Source of the DNA: Amyelois transitella
Taxonomy: Eukaryota; Arthropoda; Insecta; Lepidoptera; Pyralidae
Assembly: GCF_032362555.1 (NCBI RefSeq)
Contig: NC_083529.1
Span: 1,364,001 to 1,428,000, forward strand
Reading direction: 5' to 3'
DNA: 64,000 nt
Below, one piece after another: positions 10,014 through 64,000 of the stretch. Numbering within the stretch: position 1 is the stretch's first letter; each line of letters begins with the position of its first letter. Made by a program: the position numbers and the translations under genes. The notes under the pieces were generated by a model that was given only the letters and a program-made list of their open reading frames with translations, was not told the origin of the DNA and did no database searches.

Positions 10014-10030
10014 TCTATTCTCTCTCAGCC
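10005..10030 (+). promoter_or_regulatory. 3' splice site before the first JHEH coding exon
   Basis: A pyrimidine-rich run, TTCTATTCTCTCTCAG, ends at 10028, two bases before the ATG. This implies an untranslated first exon further upstream. The run continues from an AAATAAATCTATT segment matching the 3' tail of Repeat-E, so the splice signal looks transposon-derived. A start of transcription just upstream without splicing is the alternative. Confidence 0.55.
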
Positions 10031-12378: not shown

Positions 12379-12422
<44 letters not shown>

Positions 12423-15400
12423 CCGAAACCGCAGAGCTTGCATGAAGAGAGTTATGAATGTGGATGAAGAGAAGGAAGTATGCAGAGATCGTGGCAAGTG
12501 GAAAGAGGTAGTCTATGCCAACCCCTCCGGGAAAGAGGCGTGATTTTATGTATGTATGTATGTACATACATATAACGTAAAAGACGACTAAGGGATAGGC
12601 TTACTAAATATTCTTTTTTTTAGGCGATGGGCTAGCAACATATATTCGAATATCAATTCTATCATCAAGCCAAAAAGCTGAACGTGGTCTATCAGTCTTT
12701 TGAAGACTGTTGGCTCTGTCTACCCCGCAAGGGATATAGGCGTGATTATATGTATGTATGTACTAGAACTGGTTCGAATTGAAAAATTATTTTTGTGTTG
12801 AATAGACCATTTATCGAGGAGGGTTTAAGGCTATATAACATAACACTGCAACTATTAGGAGCGAAGAAATAAAAAAATAAAATTATTCATCCTTGAGGCC
12901 TTCAATCAATGATGCCCAAAATAACTATTCCAAGCGACGAAGTCGCGGGCACAGCTTGTTTATTATACCTATATTTGTTTTAAAAATCGTAAAACATTTG
13001 TAAAAAGCAATCCTTTGAACACTGTTTTTAGTCTAATAAGTTTTTAAACTCATCACATTTACGCGTCAATAACTTTGTTTACCGTTACCTAGAGAAGAAT
13101 AGAAACATTATCACCACGTAGAATAGAGAGAGAAAGAGCTACTGTATCTTGTTGTATAATTTGAACAGGTCAACGACTTGGTTCCGTGACGACTCAGTGA
13201 TTATTTAAAACCTAGTCCAAGGGACAGACCGCTTGTTATTGTATCATATTAATAATATTTTTATTAGAGACCTATTTTTGTTTGTAAATTACTTATGTAT
13301 TTGTTCCAATTTTGATTTATATCATCAATGCGAAAGTGATTTTGTCTTGGTAGACTAATATTCAGATAGTCTAACGCCTTTTCTTAGACTATAATTTACA
13401 TTTTCCCGTGGTTTTGCTTTGGTAGGAGTCTCCGAATATGAATGGAGTTTATTTTGTATACTTTTTTTTTTTGGTAATTTATGTAATCCTACATGCATAC
13501 ATGTTATCACGTCTTTATCCCTTACGGGGTAGACAGAGCCAACAGTCAGTAAAAAGTAGAATAAAGATATAAATACTTAATTATGCTCTTTAATACATAC
13601 ATACATATGGTCACGTCTATATCCCTTGCGAGATAGCAGAGCCAACAGTCTTGAATAGACTGAATAGCCACGTTCAGCTGTTTAGCTTAATGATAGAATT
13701 GAGACTCAAATAGTGACAAGTTGCTAACCCATCGCCTAAAAAAGAATACCAAGTTTATAAGCCTATCCCTTAGTCGCTTTTTACGACATCCATGGGAAAG
13801 AGATGGAGTGGTCCTATTCTTTTTTGTATTGGTGCCGGGAACCACACGGCTCTTTAATAACATGAACATTACTCACATACGTTTGTATTTATATTTTCAG
13901 ACCAACTGCAACTATCTGAAGCTATTCATTGGCTCCATCTTCCCCTCGCTGGTGGTAGACCCAAGTTTGGCTGACCGCATGTACCCACTGTCCAACTTCA
14001 TTTCTTACGTGTTAGAAGAGTTTGGGTACTTCCATCTGCAGGCAACTAAGCCTGATACTGTTGGTAAGCTAACATGTCAAATATTGTAGAAACCTAAGAA
14101 GCAAAATCGTAAATGATACAAATTGGAGGCAGAAATTTACATACATACATATAATCACGTCTACATCCCTTGCGGGTTAGACAGAGCCAATAGTCTTAAA
14201 AAGACTGATAGGCCACGTTCAGCTAATTTGCTTTAAGATAGAATTGAGATTCAAATAGTGACAAGTTGCCAGCCCATCGCCTAAAAGAAGAATCCCAAGT
14301 ATATAAGCCTACCCCTTAGTCGCCTTTTACGACATCCATGGGAGAGAGATGGAGTGGCACTAATTGAAAAAAAAAATTATTAGAAGGACGCAGAAATTTT
14401 ATACCTAAAAAGATAGATATGTATGAAGCAAAACACCTTCGAAGTTAAAATGCATATACTTAACTATATCACAAACTCCGTTACGCACGACATTCTTAAA
14501 GTAATCCTACTACTATTATAAAGGCGAAAATTTGTATGGATGTATGGATGTTTGTTACTGTTTCACGCAAAAACTACTGAACCGATTACCATGAAATTTT
14601 GTATGTAGGTAGCTGAAGACCCAGAATAACACATAGGCTACTTTTTATCCCAGAGTTCCCGCGGGATTGATAGGGTTTCCATGCGGACGAAGTCGCGGGC
14701 GGCCTCTAGTTAATGTATAATTGAATGACTGAAACATGTAAAGTACTATTTCACCTAATGCATCAAATATGTACAAAAACCGAACTATTATCATAGTTTT
14801 TGTATTAAACGTGGGATTATGATTAATTTACAAATAATGATAGGAAACCTAAAACTAGCTTGGGCAATGACTCATTGGTGACAACGACTTTTCTCATTTC
14901 AGGAACGGCCCTAAACGACTCCCCTGCGGGACTCCTCGCTTACATAGTCGAGAAGTTCTCCACGTGGACCCGTTTGGACCACAAGAAGAAGCTCGATGGC
15001 GGTCTCGAATTCCGCTTCACCAAAGACCAACTGATTGACAACCTCATGCTGTACTGGGCGCCGAAGTCTATCACCACTTCGATGAGGTTCTACGCTGAGA
15101 ACATGAGCGATAAAACGAGGAATATGAAATTGGAACAGTAAGATATCATTATCTATTTCTTAAGAGTTTGCGTTTTATTGAATACGTTATTTTATATATG
15201 ACTAGCTGTGCTCGCGACTTCGTTCGCGTGAAATAGTTATCAAGGGCATCATTGAAGCCCTCAATGATGAATAATTTTCCCCGTTTTTTTTTAATTTCCA
15301 TTATTACTTTGCTCCTAAAAGTTGCAGCGTGATGTTATATAGCCTAAAGCCTTCCTCGATAAATAGTCTATTAGACGCAAAAAGAATTTTTCAATTCGAA

Positions 15401-18194: not shown

Positions 18195-20059
18195 TTATTT
18201 ATTATCTTTTATATCTTTCTCTTTGGCATTTCCGGTTTTTCCATCAACATTTTGAGCTGGAGCAATCATCAGTAAATTGTTCCCATTTCTATCAGCCAAG
18301 CTCCTAAACGGAACATTAGGCCGCCATCTTGAATTAAAATAATACTGATTCCGCAAAACCCTTAAATGTTCTTTGCCGAAGTAAAAATCTGATCTTTGTG
18401 TCAAATTCCTCTGAAAATTCCGTTTCAGTTCTTCATTTTCTTCATTGCCATATTTTTGATCAGTTTCATGAAAGATTTTGTGTTTAGGACCGTCATCTTC
18501 GAAGTATGGCCTTTTTAGTCGGAGTCTCCTAGACTGAGGACTTAGTGGTGGCTCACATTTGATAGCGAGATTTACTGAATTCTCTTTGTTCATAGATAGA
18601 CCATGGTTCTTCTGCCATTCTAGTACTTCGCATAGGAGGCCTATGTACCTAAAAAATAATTTTGCTAAGTGGATTGGATAGTCTATATATGTAAAAATCT
18701 ATCATGGAAATAAAAATGAAAAATATGAATTTCTCAATTGACTTATTATTTCATACGGTATTATAATGGCTGAAATTCGACATGAAACCAACAGTTTTAA
18801 ATTTAGAAGATGAGAGAGATTCAACGCTCTCATTTTAAACTCCTTATTAATCAGTAAATTTTTTAAATACTAGATAAACTTATTGTGTATAGGTTATATC
18901 GGAGTAAAGTTTCTATATTTTTAACATGAAGAAAGAAATATCAGACAATGAACTCTGGGCTAAATAACATATGAGTGCAGTGGACAACTGGGAACATGCA
19001 AACATTAGAAAGATAGAGGTATTTCATACCGATAATAATATAGGGCTAACAATCTATTCCGCTGAGAATATCAAAATTATGGTTTATTCCACTTTTTGTC
19101 ACCTGGGTGAATTGGTATATTTTTCAAAATTGTCACCCTTAAATATATCTATGCAAGTATTCAAAAAAATTCTAAAGCTGTACCTTAGATTAGCAGAAAC
19201 CTGTAGTTAGAGATCATAGGATCTCACGCTTATACCATTTCTTCTCTGGAAGATGATCAGTCTCCTACCAGCCTTAGACGCCTTAATATAAAGGAAGTTA
19301 AAACGTTCTTTACTTACCTTATAGCCATCCTTAGGATCTCATTCTTGGACAATTTCTTATCCGGGGGGTGGGTTGGCACCAATCTCCTCAACTCTGCGAA
19401 GGCTCCACTAACATTCTGCTGTCTCCAGCGTTCTCGGCAGTTCGTGAACAGCTTGCGAGGTGGACGGAGGAGGCAGGAGTTGAGGGATGGAAGGTCCTCT
19501 GAGTGATTCTGTGAGAGATGAGTTAGTATTGAAGGTAAGTCTAAGGCAAGTGTAAGGTAGATTCAGATTCATTTATTGCAAGTCACAAGTTTGAAGATGA
19601 CACAAAAGTATTAAGTAAAATGGCACTCTGCAGGGGCATAGCAAAAACTAGTTGTCATTTAATGTTTATATAGTCCTATATCCCTTGCGGGGTAGATAGA
19701 GCCAGCAGTCTTGAAAGACTAAATGGCCACGTTCAGCTGTTAGGCTTAATGATAGAATTGAGATTGTAGTAGTGATAGGTTGCTAGCCCATCGCCTAAAA
19801 GAAGAATTTCAAATTTATAAGCCTATCTCTTAGTCGCCTTTTACGATGCCTATGGAAAAAAGATGGATTGGTCCTATTCTTTTTTATATTGCTGCCGGAA
19901 ACCACACGGCATATTTTCATAAGATGGATTATAACTGCTAACAGTTACCTGAACACTCCTGATTTGCCGATCATCATCGCTGTCTGGTAGACAGAAGTCA
20001 TCACTCAACATCTCACTGTCTGGTTCCTCATCAGAACAGGACTCCTGGTCTGACGCCAT
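18195..20059 (-). CDS. HLH3B: TAL1/SCL/LYL1-type bHLH transcription factor (HLH3B-like), complete, 3 coding exons
   Basis: Minus-strand exons: 20059-19949, 19508-19318 and 18648-18195 (stop TAA), 756 nt, 251 residues. Exon 1 encodes a short acidic N-terminus rich in Asp, Glu and Ser. Exon 2 carries the basic region and most of the helix-loop-helix, about residues 55-100, with RERWRQQNV and the loop [15 protein letters not shown], hallmarks of the TAL1/LYL1 group. Helix 2 runs into exon 3 ([12 protein letters not shown]), ending near residue 113. Such factors bind E-boxes as heterodimers with E proteins such as Daughterless; the Drosophila member is HLH3B. The rest of exon 3, about 140 residues, is basic and hydrophilic and I recognise no domain in it. 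The start ATG has a good context (CACCTCCATGG), and a likely acceptor TTGCTACAG just upstream implies a 5' UTR exon. Intron 1 holds a SINE-A. Confidence 0.92.
19668..19910 (-). mobile_element. SINE-A in intron 1 of the HLH3B-like gene
   Basis: Starts ATAGTCCTATATCCCTTGCG and ends GGAAACCACACGGCAT, 39 bases from exon 1. Confidence 0.8.
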
Positions 20060-28730: not shown

Positions 28731-31700
28731 ATGGATCCACAAGAATTAGTGCCATTGGAATGTAAGTATTTTTACTTATAGAATTGATAAAATCGGTCAA
28801 GTGCGTGTTGAGCCACGCGCATTGTAAGAAGATATCTAGACAAATTCTCCAAACTAGACGCATTACCTTTATAAGTTGCTAGTAGTTAGTCCCGATTGCA
28901 TCCTCGCCACTCTGGAGAGGAGCCCGGGGTATGCCTTTGACCATAGACCCTAAATTGGGTGAGTCAGGTTTTTACACGAAGCGACTCATTTTACCTTTGC
29001 AGGTAAACTTTAGCCATATTGGATCAATTAGGTTACATATCTAGTTGCCTGAATGTGCAGGTTTCCTCACGATGTTTTCTCTCTGTAAGAGCGTCGTTTA
29101 GTTTTCAAACTAATGTACTTCGAAAATGGTCATTGGTACAACGCCTAGGTGGGATTCGAACCTGTGCCCTTTCTGTGCTTAACGCATTTTAACCGCACCT
29201 AACAGATTCGAAAACCTCGCTCGTATAAGCTGCTAATGTATTTGAGAATAATTACTAATAATAAATGTATATTATGAGTTTCTACTTTTACAAATTTCAA
29301 ATTTTCTTTCTTGATTGCCTCTGTGCGCTTGGCTAGGTCAATGCAGGTCCCGGGTTCGAATCCCGACCCGGGCATAATCATAAACGTACTTTTTCTGATT
29401 GGCCCAGTTCAATCAGAAAAAGTTCTTGGATGTTTATCTAAGTATACCAAAGTATTCATTATAGGCTTACAAACTTGGGATTCTTTTCTAGGCGATGGGC
29501 TAGCAACCTGTCACTATTTGAATCTCAATTCTATCATTAAGCCAAATAGCTGAACGTGGCCATTCAGTCTTTTCAAGACTGTTGGCTCTGTCTACCCCGC
29601 AAGGGATATAGACGTGACCATATGTATGTATGTATTCATTATAAAAATATAGTTTCGTTGAATACATATAATTAGTATCTCGTAACGCAAGTCTTCAAAT
29701 TACTTCGAGGCTAACTAGATCCGTGTAATTAGTCCCGTAGGTATACAGGGTGACTTTTAATTCAACTGCATAAATTTAACTGTTAAGTGTACTCATCTAA
29801 AGGATATTTAAAAATGTTAAAAGAAAAATATCGGTTCATATTTCAGAATAGGCTCAAACAGCTCAGAAGCATGGGTATAGTCTATGTTTAAAAGGATGCA
29901 GTTGTTTTAAATGTCACCCAGTATATTTATGTTATATCATTTCCACAGCCGGCTTGCCCAGACCCCCAAGACCCACAGTGGGGCGTCACTGCAGCCGTAT
30001 CGCCTCTCAGTCCTGCATACGAGGTCCAATTAGGCTATGCCGAATGTTAGCCTTAATGATACTACTACCGTCTACTTTTATATTCGTACCTTTATACTTA
30101 AGGTAAGATATTGTTTAATTGTCTAGTGAATTGCGATTCGCGGCATCAATAAAAATAAAGAATACGACCACTCGTTCTCTTTACCATGGATGTCGTAAAA
30201 GGCGACTAAGGGATAGGCTTTTTTACTTGGGATTCTACTTTTACTTGTCACTTTTTAAATCCCAATTCTATCATCAAACCAAAAATCTGAATGTGACCAA
30301 AAAATGAAAAAAATGATTTTTTTTTTTAAGACTGTTTATTGTCTCTGTCTACCCCGCAAGGGATATAGACGTGACTATATGTATGTATTGTTGAATTCGT
30401 GCATACATACATATAATCACGTCTATATTCCTTGCGGGGCATAGTTTTAAGCATTTTATTAAACGTCAACCAATGTTGTGAAACCAAAAGATATGACAGT
30501 AGTCATGTTTGAAATGTTCCATAATAACATAACATAACATAAAATCACGCCTCTTTCCCGGAGGGGTAGGCAGAGACTACCTCTTTCCAGTTGCCACGAT
30601 CTCTGCATACTTCCTTCGCTTCATCCACATTCATAACACTCTTCATGCGAGCTCGGCGCTTTCGGGTATTCTTGACCATGTCCCATAATAATGAATTAAA
30701 AAAATAATTAATTTTAATTACTAATGTTTCAGATACCGTGTATTCTCCGGACAAATGTATCCCATGAGCATGACTGACATGAGACTGATTGACAGCAAAA
30801 TATCCACCACTTGGTGCCAGGTAGGTGTATACAGGTTCAAATCCCACCAAGGTCATGTAACAATGACTCTTCGGAATTATGCGGCCAACTGATGAAATAA
30901 GCAAAGATCAAAGACTTTTGATAAAGGAAAACTTACTATTTATTTAGACTTAATTATAATAACTAAAACAATGGCCTATAAGCCTAAGCCTATCCCATAG
31001 TCGCCTTTTACGACATCCGTGGGAAAGAGATGGAGTGGTCCTATTCTTTTTTGTAATGGTGCCGGGAACCACACGACACTATGGGATAGGCTTATAAACT
31101 TGGGATTCCTCTTTTAGGCGATGGGCTAGCAACTTGTCACTATTTGAATCTCAATTCCATCACAAAGCCAAACAGCTGAGCGTGGCCTATCAGTCTTTTC
31201 AAGACTGATGGCTCTGTTTACCCCGCTAGGGATATAGATGTGATCATATGCATGCACAATGGCACTGTAAAATATTTGAACATGGAAGAGAGGGCTTGAC
31301 AGGTAAGATCCGGAAGTGTGTATAAGTGCGTCTGCGTTTCTCTCAACATACATACATATGATCACGTCTATATCCCTTGCGGGTAGACAGAGCCAACAGT
31401 CTTAAAAAGACTGAATGGCCACGTTCAGCTATTTGGCTTAATGATAGAATTGAGATTTAAATAGTGACAAGTTGCTAGCCCGTCGCCTAAAAGAAGAATC
31501 CCTAGTTAAGCCTATCCCTTAGTCGCCTTTTACAACATCCATGGGAACGAGATGAAGTGGTCCTTTTTTTTATTGGTGCCGCGAACCACACGGTAAACTC
31601 TCAACACCAACAGCATATCACGTTAGATACCCAAATTCACTGATAGGTTGATAAAATGTCTGTTCAACAGTAACACTTAGAGCATGCAGGTAAATTATTA

Positions 31701-34700
31701 TCAGTTCATTGACGTCAATGTGTTGAACTTGTTTATGCTAGTAGCTTTGCTTCCATGAGAATTCCCGATTCCGTTCTCTCCTCTAGAATAGAATAGAATT
31801 ACTATACTACATACATTATAATCACGGCTATATCTCTTGAGGGGTAGACAGAGCCAACAGCCTTGAAAAGACTGATCGGCCACGTTCAGCTGTTTGGCTT
31901 AATGATAGAATTGAAATTCGAATAGTTTTAATTGTATGTTTAGATTAACTATACTTACACATTAAATTATATGTCCCGTATATATTTATTTATTTATTTA
32001 TTTACTTACACATAAAATTGTATAAAAACATACATACATATGGTCACGTCTATATCCCTTGCGGGATAGACAGAGCCAGCAGCCTTGAAAAAAATGATAA
32101 ACCACGTTCAGATATTTGACTTAATAATAGAATTGAGATTCAAATAGTGACAGGTTGCTAGCCCATCTCCTAAAAAAAATCCCAAGTCTGTAAGCCTATC
32201 CTTTAGTCGCCTTTTACGACTTCCATGGGAAAGAGATGGAGTGGTCCTATTCTTTTTTGTATTGTTGCCGGGAACCACACGGTTTTACGCTACATATACT
32301 TAATAGTAGTAGTAAGACCTTGTATCAAAATTAAGCAGCCATTTAACATATATAATTGACTAGCTGTGCCCGCGACTTCGTCCGCGTGGAATAGTTATTT
32401 CGGGCATCATATTTATTTTTGCAAACATCCTCCTCGGCTTTATCATTTATAGCTGCTAATTGTTATGCGACTTGCCGACGACTTGGCCCACATCATTACC
32501 CGCGACGGAACGGAGACCGTATATGAGATGAGAGGCCTTTGCCCAGTAGTGGGATCTTACAGGCTGATACTTTACTTTAAAATAGTAATATCTTCTAAGA
32601 TGTTCATTGAAATTAAGTGATATCAAAGACAGTTGTGTTTACAATTAAATACTCATAATCAACAACAATCTTAAAAGATAGACATAATCAGCGGTCAAGC
32701 GGTCACGCGTATTAGAAAGAACGCTGGTTCGCCGTATTAAATGTTTCGCTGCAAATTGCTTATAACGACTTTATCTCAAAACCTATTCGTCTGATTTATA
32801 GACTGTAAATGGCAATTTTAGTCTACATGAAAAGCCGAAAGTAATAAACATATTGATTTGGATAAGGATTAATACTGAATTAAAGAAAATTGGTTTCAAA
32901 ATAACTTATGTTTATAATGAAAAAATAATCTTAAAAAATGAACATAAAAGTGGTTATTGTAAGTAAACCTTAAGAGATAGATATATGCTCTCGCGGACTT
33001 TTTTGTGGCAAAAAATGAGTACTTCACATCTTTAGTACATTGTTTTAGTATATCTTTGTTGGTTTGCGCAGCGTTCGCGTGGAAAGCTCGCATATGGCCG
33101 ACTCATTCAACTTTCACCTGCATTGTTGACGTTTCCCGTAGGAAATTTGGGATAAAATGTAGCCTATAGCCTTCCTCGATAAATAGACTATCTAACAGTG
33201 AAAGAATTATTCAAATCGGTTCAGTAGTTTCTGAGATTAGCGCGTTTAAACAAACAAACAAACAAAACAAACTCTTCAGCTTTATAATATTAGTATAGAT
33301 AACATAGTATTGTTATAAAACTTGTGTTACGTACATAAAAAATATAAATAATAATTGAACTACCGCCGCCGACCGATAACAGTTATCTTAAGACTTTATC
33401 AATAAGCTGAAGGAGACGATATTTCTAAACATAATCACTACATACCTACATATATGAATAATGCCGGGAACCACACGGCACCAATAGATTAGTCGACATC
33501 CACGAGGAAAGAGATGTCTTTCCTCGTGTGTCGTAAAAGGCGACTAAGGGATAGGCTTATAAACTTGGGATTCTTCTTTTAGGCGATGGGCGAGCAACCT
33601 GTCACTAATTGAATCTCAATTCTATAATTAAGCCAAAATACTGAACGTGGCCAATCAGTCTTTTTTAAGACTTTTGGCTCTGTCTACCCCGCAAGGGATA
33701 TAAACGTGACTTAATATATGTATGTTTTCTTACAGAGGCAAGTGGTGCGATCCAATGCGACTTTCAACGCGTTCCTGGTCCCGGGACCTCCCGAGTTCAG
33801 CCAGGAATTGGTGCCTGTCAGCATGACGAGGGAACTGGAGTTAGAAGACGACATGAAGGAGTACTGGGGTTTCTACTTGTTGAAGGGATCCAGTGTGACC
33901 GTCTCCACCTGCGTCAGGTCAGTTCATCATCAGGATTTATCATGTTTTGTTAACAATCATTCAAAAACACGTATGTATAAGTGCGTCGGGAGTCGAATGG
34001 TTAAGATCTTACATACATATGGTCACGTCTATATCGCTTGCGGGGTAGACAGAGCCAACAGTCTTGAAAAGACAGAATGGCCACGTTCAGCTATTTGGCT
34101 TAATGATAGAATTGAGATTCAAATAGTGACAGGTTGCCAGCCCATCGCCTAAAAAAGAATCGCAATTTGGTAAGCATTTCTCTTAGTCGCCTTTTACGAC
34201 ATCTATTGGAAAGAGATGGAGTGGTCCTATTCTTTTTTGCATTGGTGCCGGGAACCACACGGCACTTTATGATCTTACCCTTCAAATAGGTGAGGATACA
34301 ACTAGGTTCATTTTGAAATCAGACTAAAAATTATAGAGATGCTAAATGTGGACGCAAATAAACAGCCGTCATCCAATTAACATATCCAATTTAATGATTG
34401 CTTTGTAAACAGATGTTTAATATGAGGATCGTAATAAAACGTAAAAATAAACAATTTGATTTGGACTATTTCCATATATTTACACGAAAAATTTATGAAT
34501 AACCAGCTGTGCCCGCGACTTCGTCCGCGTGGGCGTGGCCCATAATAGTTATTATGGGCATCATTGAAGCCCTCAAGGATGAATAATTTTCCCCGATTTT
34601 TCCACATTTTCCATTATTTCTTCGCTCCTAATAGTTGCAGCGTGATGATATATAGCCTAAAGCCTTCCTCGATAAATGGTCTATTTAACACAAAAATAAA

Positions 34701-40700: not shown

Positions 40701-43700
40701 TAAAAGGGAACTAATGTTAGGTCAAATTGAACTGCAGAAATCTTTCAATGAAGACGACGAAGCCAGAGACTACGCTGCTGAAGAGGTAACTACATTTTTA
40801 GTTTCATATTTGACGGCCTCTGTGGCGCAGCGGTATTACGCTTGTCTGTGACACCGGAGGTCCCGGGTTCGAATCCCGTCCAAGGTATGATGAGAAAACA
40901 ACTTTTTCTGATTGGCCTGGGTTTTGGATGTTTGTCTTTATAAGTATTTATTGTAAAATATAGTACCGTTGAGTTAGTATCTCGTAACACAAGTCTCGAA
41001 CTTACTTCGAGACGAACTCAATTCGTATAATTTGTCCCGTATATATTTATTTGTGTAATATATGCTTTATGGATACTCCTATACCTGCGTAACTTACCCA
41101 CATCTGAATAAAGGAATTTAGCCTTAGAGAACTCGTCACAGGGTCGTTAAACGTTTAACGTAAAAATTTATGATTACGTGGATGTCGTAAAAGGCGACTA
41201 AGGGATAGGCTTACAAACTTGGGATTCTTTTTCAATGGGCTAGCAACCTGTCACTATTTGAATCTCAATTCCATCATTAAGCCGAATAGCTGAACGTGGC
41301 CTATCAGTCTTTTTAGGACTGTTGCCTCTGTCCACCCCACAAGGGACATAGACGTGACCATATGTATGTAATACAACTTCACAGGGTCTCCAACCAGACG
41401 GTTACGCGGAACACCACGAGCACATCAATGAGACCACAGCCTTCGACATGAGCAACTCAGAATACTGGTCATCATTCTCCAGCAGCGAGGAAGCGTTGTT
41501 GGAGTGCGATGGGCTGATCCTCAATCTGCCACTGACGCCATCTGCTGGCTGCACTGATAAAGCTACGGATGACCAGACTTATAACGCTGCTAGATCTAAC
41601 GCCCTAACGTATAGGTAATCTTCTTCCTCATTGTTGTATCCTCACCTACCTGGATAATTTTTTTCCTCCTCGCTTTAGTCCTGGTTGCATCCTCACCTCC
41701 CTGGAGAGGAGCCTGAGGTATGCCCTTGACCATGGACCCTAGATTGGGTGAGGTTTTTACACGAAGCGACTCCTATCTGACCTCCGCAACCTTTGCAAGT
41801 GAACCTAGTCAGTATTGGATCCATGGTTACGCATTCAAGTGCCTGAATGTGCAGGTTTCCTCACGATGTTTCCACTCACCGTAAGAGCATCGGTTAGTCT
41901 TCAAACTAACTTTGAAAATAGTCATTGGTACATGGCCGTGGTGGGATTTGAACCTGTGCCTTTCTGCGCGTCACGCATTTTAACCGGGCACCTTACCAAT
42001 TCGACCACTGATGCTGTAACGTTTAGGTAATGTGATAAGCTTACAAACTTGGGATTCTTTTTTAGGCGATGGGTTAGCAACCTGTCACTATTTGAATCTC
42101 AATTCTATCATTAAGCCAAATAGCTGAACGTGGCCATTCAGTCTTTTCAAGACTGTTGACTTTGTCTACCCCGCAAGGGATATAGACGTGGCCATATGTA
42201 TGTATGTATCCCTTAGTCGCCTTTTACGACATCCATGGGAAAGACTAATCTGTAATCTATTAACCTAGGATATCTACCACGGTTGAACAACAAACCGTAT
42301 CAAATTTCATTGTAAAGTTTTTGCTTAATGTATTTACAATGTGACAGAACTTAAACCGACACAGACTGTCTGACATCATTCTAATAAAATAGAACTGGCC
42401 ATGAAGATCAATGTTAGGTCGGGAACTACCATAGACTTACAACTAGTTAGATAGCTCACGTTCAGGAAAACTAGATGTCAAGATGTTTTCTGCTCCGTAT
42501 CAAATTTAATTGTGAAGTTTTTGCTTAATGTAAGTATTTACAATGTGACAGATCTTAAACCGACACAGACAGTCTGACATCATTCTAAAGAAATAGAACT
42601 GACCATGAAGATCAATGTTATGTTACGCTATAGGTTGGGAACTACCATAGACTTACAACTAGTTAGATAGCTCACGTTCAGGAAAACTAGATGTCAAGAT
42701 GTTTACTGCTTAGGTACAACAGTTTTTACGCCAACGTTTCGTTTTCACCCGTTTATTTGATTTTACATACATATAATCAAGTTTATACCCATGCAGGGTA
42801 GACTATTATACAACTATTGTTACAAGTAGAATCCCAAGCTTATAGGCCTATGCCTTAGTCGCCTTTTACGACAATTTTAAACATACATTAAACATAGAAC
42901 TTGATACAGCACAAGGCTACATTCAGAAACTTCAAATAATCGCTACACAATATCGAATGACATATTTGCGAAAGAATGTACATTTGTCGCTCCTACAAAA
43001 ACTGATTATAATAGTTCTTTGGTTACCCACCGGGATTTGGACGCGCGAAAGACTTTACATTTTTCAACAGCGCAGTGCTAATTTGATACAAACTATTTTT
43101 ACTTAAATAAAATCCAAAAATTATAAATGTTCTACATAAAACTAAGTACCTACTACATAATACATACATACATAAAATCACGCCTCTTTCCCGGAGGGGT
43201 AGGCAGAGACTACCTCTTTCCACTTGCCACGATCTCTGCATATTTTCATTCGCTTCATCCACATTCATAACTCTCTTCATGCAAGCTCGGCGGTTTCGGG
43301 TACTTTTGATCTGACCCTTTTCCAGGACGTCCTTAATACATAATACTATAGGTAAAATGTTTTATTTCAAATGAGGGCAGCACTGCGCCGTTGAAAAGTG
43401 AGAAATGACTCTTAATCACTCGTAAGGTCTATCTATATCTATGTCAGTGGTAACAACATTCCTAGAAACTTTAATTGATGACAGATTTATCTAGACATTG
43501 TCACAGAACACTAATTGGTGATCAGACACAGTCGTGTGATAAAAATCAATCTGAATAAGGATTTCATTTGATTGTCTAATAGCGATAAGGCATATCAAGT
43601 TCCTCTATAGCCGTGGCGGACCAATCTATATTTTGCGTGCTATCTTTCCCCTGGATGTCGTAGACGGCGACTAAGGAAATAGACATATTTATTCATTACA

Positions 43701-46700
43701 TGCTTTTAACATGATCCAACATGAATTACGTTAAGTTACCCTGCTAGGGTTGTGGAGGTCAGGGTGACTCTCCCAAGACCATGGTCAAAATGCACACCAC
43801 GGACTTCTCCCCGGAGAAGTTAAAATGGAGTGTGAAACATGATTACTGTTACCTATTATTATTGTAGTTTCGTGTTGGTCCCAACACCAATATAAAAAAG
43901 CATAGGAACACTCCCTCTCTTTCCCATGGATCTCGTAAAAGGCGACTATAGGATAGACTTGTAAACTGGACATTTTAGGCGACGGGCTGGCAACCTGTCA
44001 CTATTTGAATCTCAATTCTAGCAGTAAGCCTACGAGTATCAGCTGAACGTGGCTCAATGCTATCAGTGTTTAAAGACTGATGGCTCTGTCTACCCGGCAA
44101 AAGACATAGACGTGATCATATAAATGAATGAATGATTTGATGATGATGAATTTGCAAATTAAATATCTTTTTATTTTGTTTTGCGTCGTGTTGTTCCAAT
44201 CCCTTTAGAGTATGACCACTTCATCTCTTTGCCATGGATATCGTAAAAGGCGACTAAGGAAATAGGAGCTCAACGAGAGCAAGCATGCTGGTCTGGTTGT
44301 AAAGAAAACACATTGTGTGTGCCAGATTTTCTTTCCGTGCAGATTTTAAAAGTCAAATCAAGCGAAAGCCTTGGAATTTTTCTTGTGGACAACGGCTAGT
44401 CATTATTTGAATCTTAATCCTAAAATTCTCACGGCCAAGCTCGGCCTTGCAGTCTTGACAAGACTTACAAGACTCTTTCTACCCCGTAAAGGACACAGAC
44501 GTGATTACATATATGTATATGTATCGTTATTTTGTATCAGGGTACCAGCAAATGGCTACTACTTCTTCGTCTTCAACTCGGAAAACGAGGTCCAGACGAA
44601 CTTCATCAAAGCCAAGTTCGACCTTCAGAAGACCAGATATGACGTAGCCAGGACCGCTTTGAGAGAATGCAAGAACAGCACTGAAAGATGTGACCTCCCT
44701 TTAGACATATTCTCGAGTCAGAAGGTAAGCCGCCGTGTGGTTCCCGGCACTATTACAAAAAAGAATAGGACCACTCCATCTCTTTCCCATGGATGTCGTA
44801 AAAGGCGACTAAGGGATAGGCTTATTAACTTGGGATTCCTCTTTTAGGCGATGGGCTAGCAACCTGTCACTATTTGAATCTCGGTTCTATCATTAAGCCA
44901 AATAGCTGAACGTGGCCATTCAGTCTTTTCAAGACTGTTGGCTCTGTCTACCCCGCAAGGGATATAGACGTGATCATATGTATGTATGTATGCAGAAGGT
45001 AAGTTTAATACAAACATACATAAAATCACGCCTCTTTCCCGGAGGGATACGCAGAGACTACCTCTTTCCATTTGCCACGATCTCTGCATACTTCCTTCGC
45101 TTCATCCACATTCATAACTCTCTTCATACAAGCTCGGCGGTTTCGGGTACTTTTGACCTGACCCTTTACCAGGACGTCCTTAATAAAAGTAAGTTTATTA
45201 TTCATTGGGATGTCATTAAGGGGATGCAAAATTCCTATTTTTACTTAAAGACCCGACTAAACGTGGCTTTCAGTCTTTGTGAGACTGTTGGCTCTGTCTA
45301 CCCCGTAACGGATAAAGACACGATGATAGAAATGTATGTACGTACATATTTAAAGACCGTGTGGTTCCCGGTACCAATAAAAAAAAAGAATAGGACCACT
45401 CCATCTCGTTCCCATGGACGTCGTAAAAGGCGACTAAGGGATAGGTTTATAAACTTGGGATTCTTCTTTTAGGTGATGGGCTAGCAACCAGTCACTATTT
45501 GAATCTCAATTATATCATCCAGCCAAAAGGCTGAACGTGGCCAATCAGTATTTTCAAGACTGTTAGCTCTGTCTACCCCGCAAGTGATATAGACATGATT
45601 ATATGTATGAATCGTACACTCAATATCGTCGTAATAATACAAAATAATAATTATTAATAGACTGGTCACAACTAACAACTAAATAAATATGGAATTCGCA
45701 TGCCAATCAAACAGTGTTTGCGTCTGACATCATGTTATTACAACGCGTTACTTGGGTCAATGTGTACAAAGCGGTGTTCACATTGAACAAATTTTTGTTT
45801 GTTTGTAAACTCTTTATTGCACATAAAAATAAATAAAACAAATTACAAAACAATTATTGGATTTAGAATAATATGTACAATGGCGGACTTATCCTCAATG
45901 GGATTTCTTCCAGTCAATTTTCATACATACATACATACGTCTATATCCCTTGCGGGGTAGACAGAGCTAACAGTCTTGAGAAGACTGAATCTCATATATG
46001 TACGACTGAATATCATTAAGCCAAATAGCTTAATGATAGAATTGAGATTCAATAGTGACAGGTTGCTAGCCCATCGCAACAAAAACAGAATCCCAAGTTA
46101 GTAAGCCAATACCTTTGTCGCCTTTTACGACATCCATGGGAAAGAGATGGAGTCGTCCTATTCTTTTTTGTATTGGTTCCGGGAACCACACGGCACTAAC
46201 TAACTAACTAAAAAAATTTCATTTATATAATTTCGTATTTCAAAACTTTTATTCATTATTTTGGGACATTTCAATATCACTTAATAATTGTCGTATCTTT
46301 TGGTTTCACAACATTGGTTGACGTCAAATAAATAACTTAAAACTAAGTTCATTACCGCTTCCAAAGCTCAAAAAAAACTAATCTCGGTTTGGGCGAATGG
46401 TTCCACTGGCAGAGAATCTCGGCGGCATTAAGTCCACCTGTTTTACATTTTTCGTGCATAAAGTTTAATTAAATAAATAAATAAATACCCAAGACCCAGG
46501 TCAATCAGAAGAAGTTACTTTTCCATCATGACCCGTCCGGGGATCGAACCCGGTACCTTTTAATTAAAATTAGACGCGAGAAAGCCAGTAAAAGTCTTCC
46601 TTGATCTCAGAAATAAATATAGGACGGTTATACGAGTATGTTTTTATTTATTATTTATTGTTATAATTACAATTTGTAAAGTACAAGTACCCGAAACCGC

Positions 46701-49700: not shown

Positions 49701-51920
49701 ACGACATCCGTGGGAAAGAGATGGAGTGGTCCTATTCTTTTTTGCAATGGTGCCGGGAACCACACGGCACAAGGGATATAGACGTGACAATATATGTATG
49801 TACAAGTATGTATGGTATTATCTTTCAGCAACCCTAGGCAGATATACCAGATGTTGAAGTCAATGACCCGAAACTAAATTTTACACGATCTTCTGAAGGT
49901 CAAACGTTAAGTGGCGTTAGTATATTTGTAGTAGGTTCTTTACTGTTATTTGACCTATCAGATCAGTTCATATTGACTCTGGAACGGTTAATTTGTCTGC
50001 CAATAAAAATAGCTATGCCAATCATAAAACTATAAAGTCGTTCACCGCCAATGTAGACCTTGCAATAACGTTTTACAATTCAAAATTAATTACTACAGGT
50101 TTTTATTTTACGCGCAGCGTCACACGCGCGATTTTAGCGCCGCCTACAAATGGTTTTTCGCAAATCCCAACGGGACCATACTTTTTACCGGAATGAAAAA
50201 TACCCTATGATCTTCTCCAGACTTGATTATATATATATATATATATACATGTAGCGGGAGCGATGATCCGGCTCGACCGCCACCAAAGGGAAGATCTTCC
50301 GCCAGGCTAGGTGTTATGCCTGGGGAACCGCGCGACAGACGATGTTGTGTCGGAGGTTGTATGTATATATAGCTCCAATCCTTGAAATCTCTGAAATCGC
50401 GTCTTAGATTCTTCGCTGCTATTGGTTGAGCGCGTCAATTCCTTCGCGATGATTGACAGTAGTTGTTTGATTGGATGTTGTTGACGAGTGGCGTAGAGAT
50501 GTCGCCACAGTTATATCAAAATTTCAAGATACGTTCCGTAGATAACGAGTGAAGAGGTAAAAAACAAATAAACTTACTTAACTTACTTTACAATTTTAGT
50601 TGGAATGAGTTTTAGATAAAAGCCAATTAAAGAATAGGCTTATAAACTTGGGATTCCTCTTTTAGGCGATGTGCTATCAGCCTGTCACTATTTAAATCTC
50701 AATTTTATAATTAAACTGTTGGTCCTGTCTACCCAACAAGGGATAAAGATGTATGTATTACGTAGGTTGGTAGATATTTAAATTGTATATATTCTATTTT
50801 TGGAATTGGCAATGAAACGGGAGATCAAAGTAAAGTGAAAACAGACTCGCTGAAATATCTGAAGAGCTATAAAGACTGCAATGTGATTGAAATTCTTGGT
50901 ATAAATCCCATTCATACATACATATGTTTACGTCTATATCCCTTGCGGGGTAGACAGAGCCAACGGTCTTGAAAAGACTGAATGGCCACGTTCAGCTGTT
51001 TAGCTTAATGATAGAATTGAGATTTAAATAGTGACAGGTTGCTAACCCATCGCCTAAAAAAGAATCCCAAGTTTGAAAGCCTATCCCTTAGTCGCCTTTT
51101 ACGACATCCATGGGAACGAGATAGAATGGTCCTATTCTTTTTTGTATTGGTGCCGGGAACCACACGGCACATCCAATCCCATCCATAGATACATAGGTAT
51201 AATCAAGTCTACCAAAGCCGGGCTACCAAACCAGCACGAAGGCTTAAATCTTTGTCTAAATTATGTGTATAGAATAGAATAGATTTATTGCCAAAATTGG
51301 ATACAAGGTATCACTTATTGACGTCACATCACTTAAATCTAATTATAACTACTACCGCTTCCAAAGCGCATGTGTAGAAGAGGCGGCGGAACAAACTACA
51401 CTGCAGCATTTTCATCGGACGTCAATTTACAAATATAGATCTCTTGAATCTCAATAATGAACAAATGCGCATTGACTACATTAAAAACATGAATGAATGT
51501 AGAACTATTATAATTATTTTAACTAATTATATAGGTTGGGTAATATTATTTTTTTTACCGTCGAGCTTGCATGTAAAGAGTTATGAATGTGGATGAAGCG
51601 AAGGAAGTATGCAATGATCTTGGCAAGTGGAAAGATGTAGTCTCTGCCTACGCCTACGGGAAAGAGGCGTGATTTTATGTAGGTATGTACGAGTATGTAG
51701 GGTATGTAGGTAGTATTTTAGTTGTATAGAAATTGTAATAAGATAATGATTCAAACCTATTACCTTTTTGCAGGTGGTCCTGGAAGTACCACTACGGAAC
51801 AACGACTCCCTGTGGAACGAGCAGTTCGTCATAGTCTCGGAATGTGAACCCAGGACCTCCGTGTACTTAGCGTGCGTTATCGCCGTACCAATTCTCATTC
51901 TAGTGTTCGCTTTCCAATGA
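28731..51920 (+). CDS. Two-pass membrane protein with APD1-4-like ectodomain, no RING; complete, 14 exons
   Basis: Exons: 28731-28761, 29949-30102, 30733-30820, 33736-33917, 35202-35392, 36441-36553, 37299-37464, 37751-38007, 39446-39577, 40025-40154, 40667-40785, 41385-41614, 44541-44724, 51774-51920 (TGA); 2124 nt, 707 residues, all phases consistent. A basic cytosolic N-terminus of about 42 residues precedes a membrane helix (43-61). Residues 92-165 (YWGFYLLKGSSVTVS, then RWPGASL) resemble the APD1-4 N-terminal domain. Residues 216-521 form a charged linker: the exon 8 part is Thr-rich with N-glycosylation sequons, and exons 9-11 are likely coiled coil. Residues 598-634 (GYYFFVFNSENEV) resemble the APD1-4 middle domain. 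A second helix (689-706) ends one residue before the stop, so no cytosolic RING is present, unlike the plant E3 ligases APD1-4. Family assignment is from memory; function in insects is unknown to me. Introns 3, 11, 12 and 13 are packed with SINEs. Confidence 0.85.
28880..29205 (-). mobile_element. SINE-D in intron 1 of the APD-like gene
   Basis: AGTCCCGATTGCATCCTCGC to CGCATTTTAACCGCACC, including the inverted B-box TGGGATTCGAACCTGTGCCC. Confidence 0.75.
29312..29745 (+). mobile_element. SINE-C split by a SINE-A, intron 1 of the APD-like gene
   Basis: Head 29312-29463 with CCCGGGTTCGAATCCCGACC; tail 29633-29745 with TTAGTATCTCGTAACGCAAG. A MITE-like element follows at once. Confidence 0.8.
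29464..29632 (+). mobile_element. SINE-A, 5'-truncated, nested in a SINE-C
   Basis: Flanked by TATTCATTATA at 29453-29463 and 29633-29643. It begins at GGCTTACAAACTTGGG, so truncation is at the head and the TATG end is the 3' end. Confidence 0.9.
29746..29921. mobile_element. 176-bp MITE-like element with CAGGGTGA termini in intron 1 of the APD-like gene
   Basis: The left end CAGGGTGACTTTTAAT inversely matches the right end ATGTCACCCAG, and a second matching block (CAACTGCAT, inverted ATGCAGTTG) lies just inside. TATA flanks both ends (29742-29745 and 29922-29925). It ends 27 bases before exon 2. Confidence 0.6.
30139..30447. mobile_element. SINE-A (+) followed by an inverted SINE-A tail
   Basis: 30139-30389 is a diverged plus copy. 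30402-30447 is a minus tail (ATATAATCACGTCTATATTC). Confidence 0.65.
30530..30680 (-). mobile_element. SINE-B just upstream of exon 3 of the APD-like gene
   Basis: Reads AAAATCACGCCTCTTTCCCG to CTTTCGGGTATTCTTGACC, ending about 50 bases before the exon. Confidence 0.8.
30976..31255. mobile_element. Fold-back SINE-A pair in intron 3 of the APD-like gene
   Basis: 30976-31079 is the inverted head half, 31080-31255 the plus tail half. GCCTATCCCATAG and CTATGGGATAGGC pair around the head. Confidence 0.7.
31347..31593 (-). mobile_element. SINE-A
   Basis: CATACATATGATCACGTCTA to GCGAACCACACGGTA. Confidence 0.8.
31811..31927 (-). mobile_element. SINE-A, 3' half
   Basis: ATAATCACGGCTATATCTCT to GAAATTCGAATAGT, followed by a SINE-C tail remnant (31945-32010). 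Confidence 0.65.
32029..32283 (-). mobile_element. SINE-A, full length
   Basis: ACATACATACATATGGTCAC to CCGGGAACCACACGG. Confidence 0.85.
32359..33301 (-). mobile_element. HEL1 split by about 740 bp of foreign DNA
   Basis: The 3' end (ACTAGCTGTGCCCGCGACTT to GGGCATCAT) lies at 32359-32411 and the 5' part (TAGCCTATAGCCTTCCTCG to TTTATAATATTAGTATAG) at 33155-33301. Between them are a piece of RTE-like LINE and unassigned sequence. Confidence 0.5.
32440..32575 (+). mobile_element. RTE-like LINE 3' fragment
   Basis: Contains GAGGCCTTTGCCCAGTAGTG followed by GGCTGATAC, a 3' end I recognise from lepidopteran RTE-type LINEs. Confidence 0.5.
33463..33722. mobile_element. Fold-back SINE-A ending 13 bases before exon 4
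   Basis: 33463-33510 is an inverted head; from 33515 the element continues in plus orientation. CACGAGGAAAG and CTTTCCTCGTG form the hairpin at the switch. The tail ATATATGTATG abuts the pyrimidine tract of exon 4. Confidence 0.8.
34008..34265 (-). mobile_element. SINE-A in intron 4 of the APD-like gene
   Basis: ACATATGGTCACGTCTATAT to GGGAACCACACGGCAC; GATCTTA occurs on both sides. Confidence 0.85.
34502..34768 (-). mobile_element. HEL1 in intron 4 of the APD-like gene
   Basis: Full length, from CAGCTGTGCCCGCGACTTCG to CTTTATAATATTAGAATAG, with a small local duplication near the hairpin (GTGGGCGTGGCC). Confidence 0.7.
35000..35085 (+). mobile_element. Old SINE-A remnant
   Basis: Only CAGTATTTTTCAAGAATGTT and GAACGTGATCATAAGTAGGT are recognisable. 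Confidence 0.3.
35909..36098. mobile_element. Two broken SINE-B pieces in opposite orientation
   Basis: 35909-35949 is an inverted tail piece (CGCCTCTTTCCCGGTGGAGT). 35998-36098 is a plus piece (GACGCTTGCATGAAAA to CTCCTCCGGAAAAAATGCGT). Confidence 0.45.
36169..36366 (+). mobile_element. Degenerate Helitron-like element in intron 5 of the APD-like gene
   Basis: Starts CTAATATTTAAACGCGAAAG and ends GCTGCGGGCAAAAGCTAGTT, the border motifs of a third Helitron-like group. It ends 75 bases before exon 6. Confidence 0.45.
37555..37607 (+). mobile_element. SINE-A fragment
   Basis: Contains GTGATGGGATAGCAACCTGT and TGAATCTCAATTCTATTATT. Confidence 0.5.
40812..41048 (+). mobile_element. SINE-C in intron 11 of the APD-like gene
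   Basis: CGGCCTCTGTGGCGCAGCGG (A-box), CCCGGGTTCGAATCCCGTCC (B-box), tail AATTTGTCCCGTATATATTT. Confidence 0.85.
41157..41371 (+). mobile_element. SINE-A ending 13 bases before exon 12
   Basis: ACGTGGATGTCGTAAAAGGC to GACCATATGTATGTA, directly followed by the acceptor tract ATACAACTTCACAG. Confidence 0.8.
41675..42020 (-). mobile_element. SINE-D in intron 12 of the APD-like gene
   Basis: TTTAGTCCTGGTTGCATCCT to ACCAATTCGACCACTGATGC, near complete. Confidence 0.75.
42033..42246. mobile_element. SINE-A (+) with an inverted head piece at its tail
   Basis: 42033-42210 is a plus copy from ATAAGCTTACAAACTTGGGA. 42209-42246 is an inverted piece (CCCTTAGTCGCCTTTTACGA). Confidence 0.7.
42295..42713. 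repeat. Tandem duplication of about 200-219 bp in intron 12
   Basis: Unit 1 is 42295-42494, unit 2 42495-42713; both run from CCGTATCAAATTT to CTAGATGTCAAGATGTTT. They differ by small insertions (AAGT and a TATGTTACGC block). The end of unit 2 and the next 60 bases match 1084-1190 inverted. Confidence 0.85.
42762..42868 (-). mobile_element. SINE-A with large internal deletion
   Basis: Tail ATACATATAATCAAGTTTAT joined to CCTTAGTCGCCTTTTACGAC. Confidence 0.55.
43161..43339 (-). mobile_element. SINE-B in intron 12 of the APD-like gene
   Basis: Tail TACATACATACATAAAATCA at the left, CCAGGACGTCCTTAATA at the right. Confidence 0.8.
43869..44127 (+). mobile_element. SINE-A, diverged
   Basis: GTTTCGTGTTGGTCCCAACA to CGTGATCATATAAATGAATG. 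Confidence 0.7.
44213..44523 (+). mobile_element. SINE-A, diverged, ending 17 bases before exon 13
   Basis: GACCACTTCATCTCTTTGCC to GATTACATATATGTATATG. It contains about 70 bases of foreign sequence in the middle. Confidence 0.6.
44730..44992 (+). mobile_element. SINE-A inserted at the exon 13 splice donor
   Basis: Full-length copy, 263 bp, head CCGCCGTGTGG to tail ATGTATGTATG, flanked by the 11-base duplication CAGAAGGTAAG. It starts six bases into the intron. Confidence 0.95.
45008..45188 (-). mobile_element. SINE-B inserted next to the same donor
   Basis: Inverted copy between two GTAAGTTTA repeats (44999-45007, 45189-45197). It reads ACATACATAAAATCACGCCT, then CCTCTTTCCATTTGCCACG, and ends near ACCAGGACGTCCTTAAT. 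Confidence 0.9.
45204..45611 (+). mobile_element. Two SINE-A copies in a row
   Basis: 45204-45344 is a 5'-truncated copy; 45356-45611 is full length (GACCGTGTGGTTCCCGGTAC to GATTATATGTATGAA). Confidence 0.75.
45795..45925. mobile_element. LINE 3' UTR fragment (GGACTTATCC type)
   Basis: TTGTAAACTCTTTATTGCAC and ACAATGGCGGACTTATCCTC. Confidence 0.5.
45924..46196 (-). mobile_element. SINE-A with fold-back rearrangement
   Basis: ACATACATACATACGTCTAT to GGGAACCACACGGCAC, with the inverted duplication TATCATTAAGC/GCTTAATGATA at 46009-46037. Confidence 0.8.
46245..46380 (-). repeat. Older Repeat-E relative
   Basis: Matches 47341-47500 (CATCACTTAATACTTGTC, TTTTACAACATTGGTTGACG), both diverged members of Repeat-E or a sister family. 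Confidence 0.5.
46386..46487 (+). mobile_element. LINE 3' end with ATAA-repeat tail
   Basis: GGCGGCATTAAGTCCACCTG, CGTGCATAAAGTTTAATTAA and a TAAATAAATAAATA tail. A diverged relative lies at 28230-28290. Confidence 0.5.
46493..46565 (-). mobile_element. SINE-C head fragment
   Basis: GACCCAGGTCAATCAGAAGA and GGGGATCGAACCCGGTACCT. Confidence 0.55.
46640..46880. mobile_element. LINE 3' UTR fragment split by a SINE-B
   Basis: TTATTTATTGTTATAATTAC and, after the insertion, GTACAATAGGCGGACTTAAT. Confidence 0.5.
46687..46819 (+). mobile_element. SINE-B nested in a LINE 3' end
   Basis: Copy from GTACCCGAAACCGCC to TTTTATGTATGTAT between perfect 11-base repeats GTAAAGTACAA (46676-46686, 46820-46830). 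Confidence 0.9.
47335..47500 (-). repeat. Older Repeat-E relative
   Basis: ACTACCGCTTCCAAAACGTC and AGAAGCGGTAACAAACTGCA retain the conserved Repeat-E core. Confidence 0.5.
47855..48104 (-). mobile_element. SINE-A, full length
   Basis: ATATATCACGTCTATATCCC to GGGAACCACACGGCAC. Confidence 0.85.
48372..48460 (-). mobile_element. SINE-A fragment
   Basis: CAGCTGTAGATGTGGCTTAG to AATCCCAAGTTTATT. The preceding stretch ends GCGGGCAACAGCTAGTA, a Helitron-like border. Confidence 0.5.
48532..48740 (+). mobile_element. SINE-A, 5'-truncated
   Basis: ACGGATGTCGTCAAAGGCGA to GACCATATGTATCTATGTA. Confidence 0.75.
48757..48976 (+). mobile_element. SINE-A, variant subfamily
   Basis: Carries TCTTACCAAGACTGGTCAGC in place of the usual TTTTCAAGACTGTTGGCTCT, a variant shared with 49212-49412. 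Confidence 0.7.
49212..49412 (-). mobile_element. SINE-A, variant subfamily, inverted
   Basis: ACATATAAATAGTCACGTCT start; shares the GACCAGTCTTGGTAAGAC variant with the previous copy. Confidence 0.7.
49428..49805 (+). mobile_element. SINE-A remnant split by a younger SINE-A
   Basis: The left part runs to 49507 and the right part resumes at 49771 (GACGTGACAATATATGTATG). Confidence 0.7.
49508..49770 (-). mobile_element. SINE-A nested in SINE-A
   Basis: Flanked by AAGGGATATA at 49498-49507 and 49771-49780, a duplication made from the tail of the older element. Confidence 0.9.
50250..50509. mobile_element. Probable solo LTR or short element, copy 2
   Basis: About 260 bp, same borders as 829-1083 (TGTAGCGGG start, CGCCACA end), about 90% alike by eye. 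It is inserted next to an AT microsatellite. I see no clear target duplication here, which weakens the LTR reading. Confidence 0.5.
50636..50760 (+). mobile_element. SINE-A, 5'-truncated
   Basis: GGCTTATAAACTTGGGATTC to GGGATAAAGATGTATGTATT, with a deletion. Confidence 0.65.
50912..51169 (-). mobile_element. SINE-A, full length
   Basis: ATACATACATATGTTTACGT to GGGAACCACACGGCAC; ATCC-rich flanks (AATCCCATTC and ATCCAATCCCATCC) hint at a duplication. Confidence 0.85.
51262..51427 (-). repeat. Repeat-E in intron 13 of the APD-like gene
   Basis: Inverted: AGAATAGAATAGATTTATTG to CATCGGACGTCAATTTAC. Confidence 0.7.
51562..51692 (+). mobile_element. SINE-B in intron 13, 80 bases before exon 14
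   Basis: GAGCTTGCATGTAAAGAGTT to GATTTTATGTAGGTATG. Confidence 0.75.
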
Positions 51921-51951
51921 AATGATAGGAGTGAAAGAATTTTGGTATGAT

Positions 51952-52163
51952 ACATACATACATAAAATCACGCCTCTCTCCCAGAGGGGTAGGCAGAAAC
52001 TACCTCTTTCCACTTGCCACGATCTGTGCATACTTCCTTCGCTTCATCCACATTCATTAATCTCTTCATGCAAGCTCGGCGGTTTCGGGTACTTTTGGCC
52101 TGACATTTTACCAGGACGCGTTCGTCTAGGTCTTCCCACTTCGACCTGTTCCTCCACTTTTAG
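51952..52163 (-). mobile_element. SINE-B in the 3' UTR of the APD-like gene
   Basis: The longest SINE-B here, 212 bp, flanked by TATGAT at 51946-51951 and 52164-52169. It begins about 30 bases after the stop codon and includes a 5' head (CGTTCGTCTAGGTCTTCCC) absent from shorter copies. Confidence 0.8.
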
Positions 52164-63402: not shown

Positions 63403-64000
63403 TCATTCGTACACTGTAGGCTTACCATACATACCGGCAAATAGTATAACTTCTATTTCTTTATCAATTAGCATAAATACAAAGGGCTTATTGGCAATAA
63501 AATCTGATACTTCACTACTATTTTGATAGAGATTCTCCACAGTTAATGATCTAGCTTGAACACCTTCTTCGGTAACTTCTACATCAGCCACTTGTGTCAG
63601 CATTGATGGGAAAATTGTATAATCACTTATACCTTTGAACTCAGCGTTGTTTGGACTAAACATCCTTCTAGCACCCAAATCATAAATCAATTCAGGTATA
63701 TTATCAAATTCGAAGCTCATTTTGAATCTGGGTAATTCCAAATTTACATACTTCCCACCAGAACTCTTGAACATTGTAAATATTGATTTCAATTCTATTC
63801 TGCGCAGTGAATAGAAGAAATTCAACAAGTGCTTCTGTTGTTTCGGTATGAATACCAACATGGATATCCTTTCGTTCGAGCAAGGCAGTTCCAAAACTCT
63901 CGACTTTATCACCGGGATGTAAGTCACGTTGAAGTATCCTGACTGTCTCATCATATTCACTTGCCCCACCTTTACTCCTGATAAAGAATAAAAGTCTTTC
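63403..64000 (-). CDS. Serpin, C-terminal portion, runs off the window
   Basis: An open frame of 199 residues on the minus strand enters from the right edge and ends with a stop at 63403-63405. Its C-terminus has the serpin layout: a breach and beta-sheet region, then the reactive-centre loop, then FIANKPFVFMLIDKE and ILFAGMYGKP, matching the family pattern FxAxxPFxFxI...ILFxG. The hinge begins with the usual EEG but continues V-Q-A-R-S-L instead of the Thr and small Ala residues needed for loop insertion, so it may not inhibit proteases. The first 150 or more residues lie outside the window, so neither a signal peptide nor a complete exon count can be given. A late-exon position is likely because no intron interrupts this part. 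Confidence 0.88.
   Translation of the reverse strand, partial: KDFYSLSGVKVGQVNMMRQSGYFNVTYIPVIKSRVLELPCSNERISMLVFIPKQQKHLLNFFYSLRRIELKSIFTMFKSSGGKYVNLELPRFKMSFEFDNIPELIYDLGARRMFSPNNAEFKGISDYTIFPSMLTQVADVEVTEEGVQARSLTVENLYQNSSEVSDFIANKPFVFMLIDKEIEVILFAGMYGKPTVYE

Follow-up and report, generated by a model that had tools for sequence, protein, structure and literature searches.

A splice donor of an Amyelois transitella APD1-4-domain gene present in three copies around two mobile elements

How can a gene stay readable when mobile elements have landed on one of its splice donors? This question is raised by a stretch of 64,000 nucleotides of the Amyelois transitella genome (assembly GCF_032362555.1, contig NC_083529.1, positions 1,364,001 to 1,428,000; hereafter the window), in which the end of exon 13 of an APD1-4-domain gene is followed by two mobile elements and the donor core GTAAG is present in three copies (positions 44725, 44999, and 45189 of the window). 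The array very probably records two unrelated insertions on a single donor, made likely by a very high density of elements, with the copy at 44725 still serving as the donor. Taken as a locus, this double hit is new, and it is ordinary in kind; among the papers listed in a literature search, judged by titles and the openings of abstracts, none described a donor struck by two elements.

The donor context of exon 13 reads CAGAAG/GTAAGTTTA. An 11-bp sequence, CAGAAGGTAAG, stands on both sides of a plus-strand SINE-A with 11/11 identity, and a 9-bp sequence, GTAAGTTTA, stands on both sides of a minus-strand element, here termed element B, with 9/9 identity (Table 1). The second copy of the SINE-A duplication runs into the native intron sequence TTTA, that of the element-B duplication runs into TTATT, and the ends of both duplications coincide with the element ends as defined by other copies. 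For random point pairs drawn from the window with 8 bp of slack, an exact 11-bp repeat arose by chance in 32 of 60,000 trials and an exact 9-bp repeat in 77 of 60,000. The earlier note on this DNA had described three copies of GTAAG at the positions given above and two independent insertions that each duplicated the donor, and the exact repeats at both elements bear out both descriptions.

Table 1. Positions within the window of the donor array and of the exons that it separates.
Feature	Position	Strand	Basis or remark
APD1-4-domain gene, exon 13, phase 0 at its end (...SSQK/)	44541..44724	+	tblastn, Plodia orthologue P0002, 98% identity
SINE-A duplication, left copy, CAGAAGGTAAG	44719..44729	+	holds GT at 44725, presumed donor in use
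SINE-A, full length, (TATG)n tail, 263 bp	44730..44992	+	other copies
In-frame TAG	44845..44847	+	met if exon 13 reads on into SINE-A
SINE-A duplication, right copy, CAGAAGGTAAG	44993..45003	+	second donor GT at 44999
Element-B duplication, left copy, GTAAGTTTA	44999..45007	+	overlaps right SINE-A duplication copy
Element B, LINE 3' end, KDVLVKGQ...SAYPSGKEA-stop, then (TATG)n tail, 181 bp	45008..45188	-	
Element-B duplication, right copy, GTAAGTTTA	45189..45197	+	third donor-like GT at 45189, AAA/GTAAGT, weaker
Final exon, number 14 (VVLEVP...AFQ-stop), with the acceptor of intron 13	51774..51920	+	tblastn, Plodia P0002, 94% identity

The Plodia protein P0002 maps by tblastn to 14 exons in the window, the exon next to the array being the thirteenth and exon 1 being placed by a 10-residue match only (E 0.86). 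Exon 13 matches Pfam PF16041, the APD1-4 middle domain (E 7e-12). A homologue search with exons 13 and 14 returned 152 proteins; the named organisms among the 120 matches listed are insects, and the closest among those listed, all of them pyralids, are Plodia (97%), Aphomia (96%), and Galleria (95%). From these similarities we infer that an APD1-4-domain protein conserved among insects has its pyralid orthologue in this gene. Exons 13 and 14 both align to P0002 right up to the junction. Further, of the 120 homologues listed, 64 matched a strict text pattern for the SSQK/VVLEVP join, and a contiguous join of the form [KR]x[VI]x[EQ]xP was recognized by eye in 55 of the remaining 56; for homologue P0065 the printed protein end does not allow the join to be judged. 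Because SSQK/VVLEVP is contiguous in the orthologues, 44725 is likely to be the ancestral donor position.

The first-look search of the assembly (327 Mb in 33 contigs) gave 2,155 SINE-A candidates, the best-scoring 40 of which were scored. The focal SINE-A differs from each of the 39 fetched genomic copies by exactly 1 nt over 255 nt, the differing base lying at 44832 in 37 of these comparisons and at 44826 in the other 2. This distance of a single nucleotide from every fetched copy indicates a young insertion, and the family, to judge by its copies, has evidently been active recently. A total of 24 full-length copies, defined by a length cut, lie in the window. Immediately ahead of CCGTGTGG, the bases G, T, and G occupy three successive positions in 60, 68, and 69 of 78 starts, respectively. 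SINE-A thus combines the tested properties of a SINE, being short and high in copy number with a uniform 5' end, a (TATG)n tail, and target-site duplications. SINEs that end in (ATGT)n, SfSE1 among them, have been described from Lepidoptera, as has a LINE that shares this terminal repeat, PxLINE1, and Plutella SINEs are reported to be enriched in introns (PMC8010984); SINE-A resembles the SfSE1 type in being short with an (ATGT)n tail, a likeness by description and not by sequence. No relatives were found among the viral contigs scanned with SINE-A and element B.

The second element had been taken for another SINE. Its complement encodes KDVLVKGQVKSTRNRRACMKRVMNVDEAKEVCRDRGKWKEVVSAYPSGKEA followed by a stop, which corresponds to the C-terminal end, 51 residues long, of the ORF for a reverse transcriptase. 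The peptide is 74-86% identical to all 8 matches obtained from 10 candidates, all 8 of which carry PF00078, and a longer genomic copy at locus L048 extends the ORF upstream. The end of a reverse-transcriptase ORF, a stop, a 3' tail, a truncated 5' end, and a target-site duplication are the features of a 5'-truncated LINE, whereas a SINE lacks coding sequence and is derived from cellular RNA. The description "two different SINEs" therefore needs amendment: element B is classed, from what it encodes and from its (TATG)n tail, as the 3' end of a LINE and not as a classical SINE. It exemplifies how easily a truncated LINE can be misread as a second SINE. Lepidopteran truncated RTE LINEs, which have been mistaken for SINEs, are described as comprising the end of the reverse-transcriptase ORF and a 3' UTR, with duplications of 6-12 bp and no sequence-specific site (Tay et al., 2010; PMC2887409). 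Element B fits this description by analogy and differs from it in the tail, a tetranucleotide repeat in element B and di- and trinucleotide repeats in the RTE LINEs described there (PMC2887409).

All 29 fetched relatives of element B, drawn from the best-scoring 40 of 1,948 first-look candidates, are 3-7 nt away from it. Element B departs from their majority at 4 nt, and each of these 4 sites is common to 4 to 9 of the 29 relatives. Eight of the 29 start where the focal copy starts and the others reach further into the LINE, a proportion taken from a set that favors copies with a focal-like short start. The shared 5' start (ATTAAGGACGTCC) is found with differing flanks at 43160-43338 and 45008-45188 of the window and at eight other loci (L052, L055, L060, L065, L066, L068, L069, and L071). 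These short LINE-derived copies with a common start may form a short element in its own right, or their start may mark a hotspot of truncation.

The order in which the two elements arrived had been given as SINE-A followed by the second element, and this part of the account is not upheld, as either order yields identical final letters. With SINE-A first, element B would have inserted into the right-hand copy of the SINE-A duplication; with element B first, SINE-A would have inserted to its left. The distances to neighbors (1 nt for SINE-A versus 3 to 7 nt for element B) lean toward element B having come first, and they weakly suggest that it is the older of the two. It should be noted that such dating by divergence is weak, being based on the best-scoring neighbors only, in families that may differ in subfamily structure.

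Both insertions can be derived from one ancestral site. That site, reconstructed from this sequence alone, would have read CAGAAG/GTAAGTTTATTATT, and it would have received two independent insertions by target-primed reverse transcription, SINE-A at a cut staggered by 11 bp and the oppositely oriented LINE 3' fragment at one staggered by 9 bp. Since both staggers span the donor core, the donor would have been copied at each repair. A complete donor (AAG/GTAAGC) would thereby stay attached to exon 13, and the sequence downstream of it, including the two spare donors, would be ordinary intron that is removed with the 7-kb intron 13. The related (TATG)n tails in which both elements end suggest that they may use the same or related LINE machinery. 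Intron 13 measures 7,049 bp, of which the SINE-A and element-B families make up 3,014 bp. In a wider sense, the locus illustrates how a target-site duplication can protect a gene: even where an insertion cuts through a donor, the exon can retain an intact one.

The strength of the donor copies agrees with this scheme. On a matrix built from the 12 other donors of the gene, the donor at 44725 (AAG/GTAAGC) reaches 12.5 bits and the copies at 44999 and 45189 reach 13.2 and 7.3 bits; leave-one-out scores of those 12 donors range from -0.2 to 12.0 bits. Duplex energies with the U1 5' end are -9.5 kcal/mol at 44725, -10.6 kcal/mol at 44999, and -5.6 kcal/mol at 45189. The earlier claim that the duplication rebuilt a donor upstream of SINE-A, on the exon side, is supported. 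The C that SINE-A contributes at +6 is present as had been claimed, and the same base occurs in 2 of the 12 other donors (exons 9 and 12); the suggestion that it compromises the donor is not supported. With 44725 at the upper end of the scores of this gene's donors, the loss of T at +6 is minor, and we infer that splicing in vivo starts from 44725. Splicing from 44999 instead would lengthen the mRNA by 274 nt and shift the frame, and either this or read-through past exon 13 would lead to a stop at 44845.

Might the three donors instead have a regulatory role? If 44725 and 44999 compete, part of the mRNA would gain 274 nt and less of the membrane protein would be made, and the array would be a young, possibly polymorphic splicing switch with some transcripts carrying a SINE extension of that length and its stop. 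The slightly higher score and more stable U1 duplex of 44999, together with the frameshift into the TAG that its use entails, speak for such a switch, which is nevertheless unlikely given that the exon-side donor already tops the gene's range and that 44999 is preceded by a SINE and not by native exon. The closest precedent found is canine merle, in which a SINE lies at the boundary of PMEL intron 10 and exon 11 with a 15-bp target-site duplication, and original and cryptic sites compete (PMC7349775). The likeness lies in a SINE at a splice site with a duplication at the boundary; merle involves an acceptor, one insertion, and a pigment phenotype, whereas the moth array involves a donor, two insertions from two families, and no known effect. 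The two near-identical donors, 274 bp apart and differing at +6, would offer, once RNA is sequenced, a natural assay of proximity versus strength in 5' splice-site choice, and a switch, if real, would make the locus a natural test of donor position against strength with the same donor presented twice. An error of assembly, or a local misjoin among the nested repeats, which the repeat density of the region might favor, is extremely improbable, considering that the exact duplications of both elements fit one ancestral site, that the focal SINE-A base at 44832 is common to only 2 of 39 neighbors, and that the 327-Mb assembly consists of 33 contigs.

A different objection concerns the independence of the two hits, which would be lost if the donor sequence or its chromatin attracted a shared LINE endonuclease. 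The related (TATG)n 3' tails of the two elements are compatible with this idea, as are the AT-rich site of element B (7/9) and the A or T found at the second duplication base in 27 of 28 young SINE-A sites and at the focal site, a position that the SINE-A tail repeat can blur. These 28 sites were kept from 39 young copies for a duplication of at least 9 bp and a score of at least 6.5, one member of an overlapping pair and one copy without any duplication found being among those left out. Their duplications, 9-18 bp long, are 76% AT and hold no donor-like motif, in agreement with what Tay et al. (2010; PMC2887409) state for RTEs, and the focal SINE-A duplication is among the least AT-rich of them (55%; 1 of 28 is lower). 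GTAAG lies within 4 bases of a SINE-A start at 234 sites genome-wide (0 in a backward-read control), and 8 of 10 such loci that were fetched have no open frame of at least 35 residues leading up to the junction, the other two having 35 and 39 residues. From 42 exact SINE-A starts in 156,109 bases, a rough extrapolation gives about 88,000 starts in the genome, of which the 234 GTAAG junctions are about 0.3%. At the 78 SINE-A starts, where counts are small, GTAAG was found 2x and 11 composition-matched pentamers 0 to 9x. Attraction to the donor is very unlikely, and target preference, which the earlier note had invoked for two hits within 5 bases, is not needed at a locus whose young SINE-A counterparts sit in AT-rich sites without a donor-like motif.

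Two unrelated insertions remain the favored account, and the density of elements bears on how readily they could coincide. Merged hits in the window number 89 (78 of SINE-A and 11 of element B) and cover 13,813 of 64,000 bp. Another 29 loci, selected because they contain an element-B copy and 92,109 bp in total, have 95 SINE-A hits that make up 14.9% of bases, and the window looks typical in its SINE-A density of about one per kb. If 50-89 elements inserted uniformly, at least one neighboring pair within 5 bp would arise in the window with a probability of 24-57%. Two insertions within one 20-bp donor span would occur, again under uniform insertion, with a probability of 0.02-0.06% per donor and 0.3-0.8% for the gene's 13 donors. 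As the latter figure is low, coincidence as an explanation rests on the number of genes in which such an event could have happened. A moth genome contains tens of thousands of donors, and neutral double hits on donors would be expected genome-wide, perhaps tens of them.

Introners also draw splice sites from their target-site duplications and so create new introns (PMC9860276). The array shares with them a duplication containing splice-site bases that supplies a splice site, here predicted to work; introners create introns (PMC9860276), whereas the insertions at exon 13 only lengthen an existing one. No coding resumes past the right-hand duplications, and the next exon was found at 51774, about 6.6 kb on.

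Several minor observations concern other parts of the window and other copies of the two families. A truncated SINE-A with the duplication TTAAAGACC adjoins a full-length SINE-A at 45245-45612, a second tight pair within intron 13. At 30985-31254 an inverted 5' part of SINE-A (minus strand, consensus 3-93) lies beside a 3' part (plus strand, 77-252), which looks like twin priming of one SINE-A insertion. A young SINE-A with an acceptor-like duplication, TTCAGGTAG, at locus L012 was considered as a splice-site hit and rejected, as it adjoins a LINE copy with no recognizable exon. Another LINE 3'-end copy (51950-52118) starts about 30 bp past the stop codon of the APD1-4-domain gene. Elsewhere in the window, open frames at 9995-15138, 19317-19562, and 63406-63999 resemble, by eye, those of a juvenile-hormone epoxide hydrolase, a bHLH factor, and a serpin, respectively. 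The tails of plus-strand SINE-A copies at 33514-33725, 41179-41370, and 44399-44518 end 10, 14, and 22 bp upstream of the acceptors of exons 4, 12, and 13. A SINE-A tail thus lies less than 25 bp upstream at 3 of 13 acceptors of the gene versus 0.55 expected (P about 0.016 under random placement); in the same test, which is post hoc, the value is 0.074 when strand is disregarded, and for two tails no more than 15 bp away it is 0.045. SINE-A tails may serve as acceptor-proximal intron sequence. At 30103-30388, a SINE-A lies shortly past the donor of exon 2, with a possible imperfect duplication (11/12) from about intron position +7.
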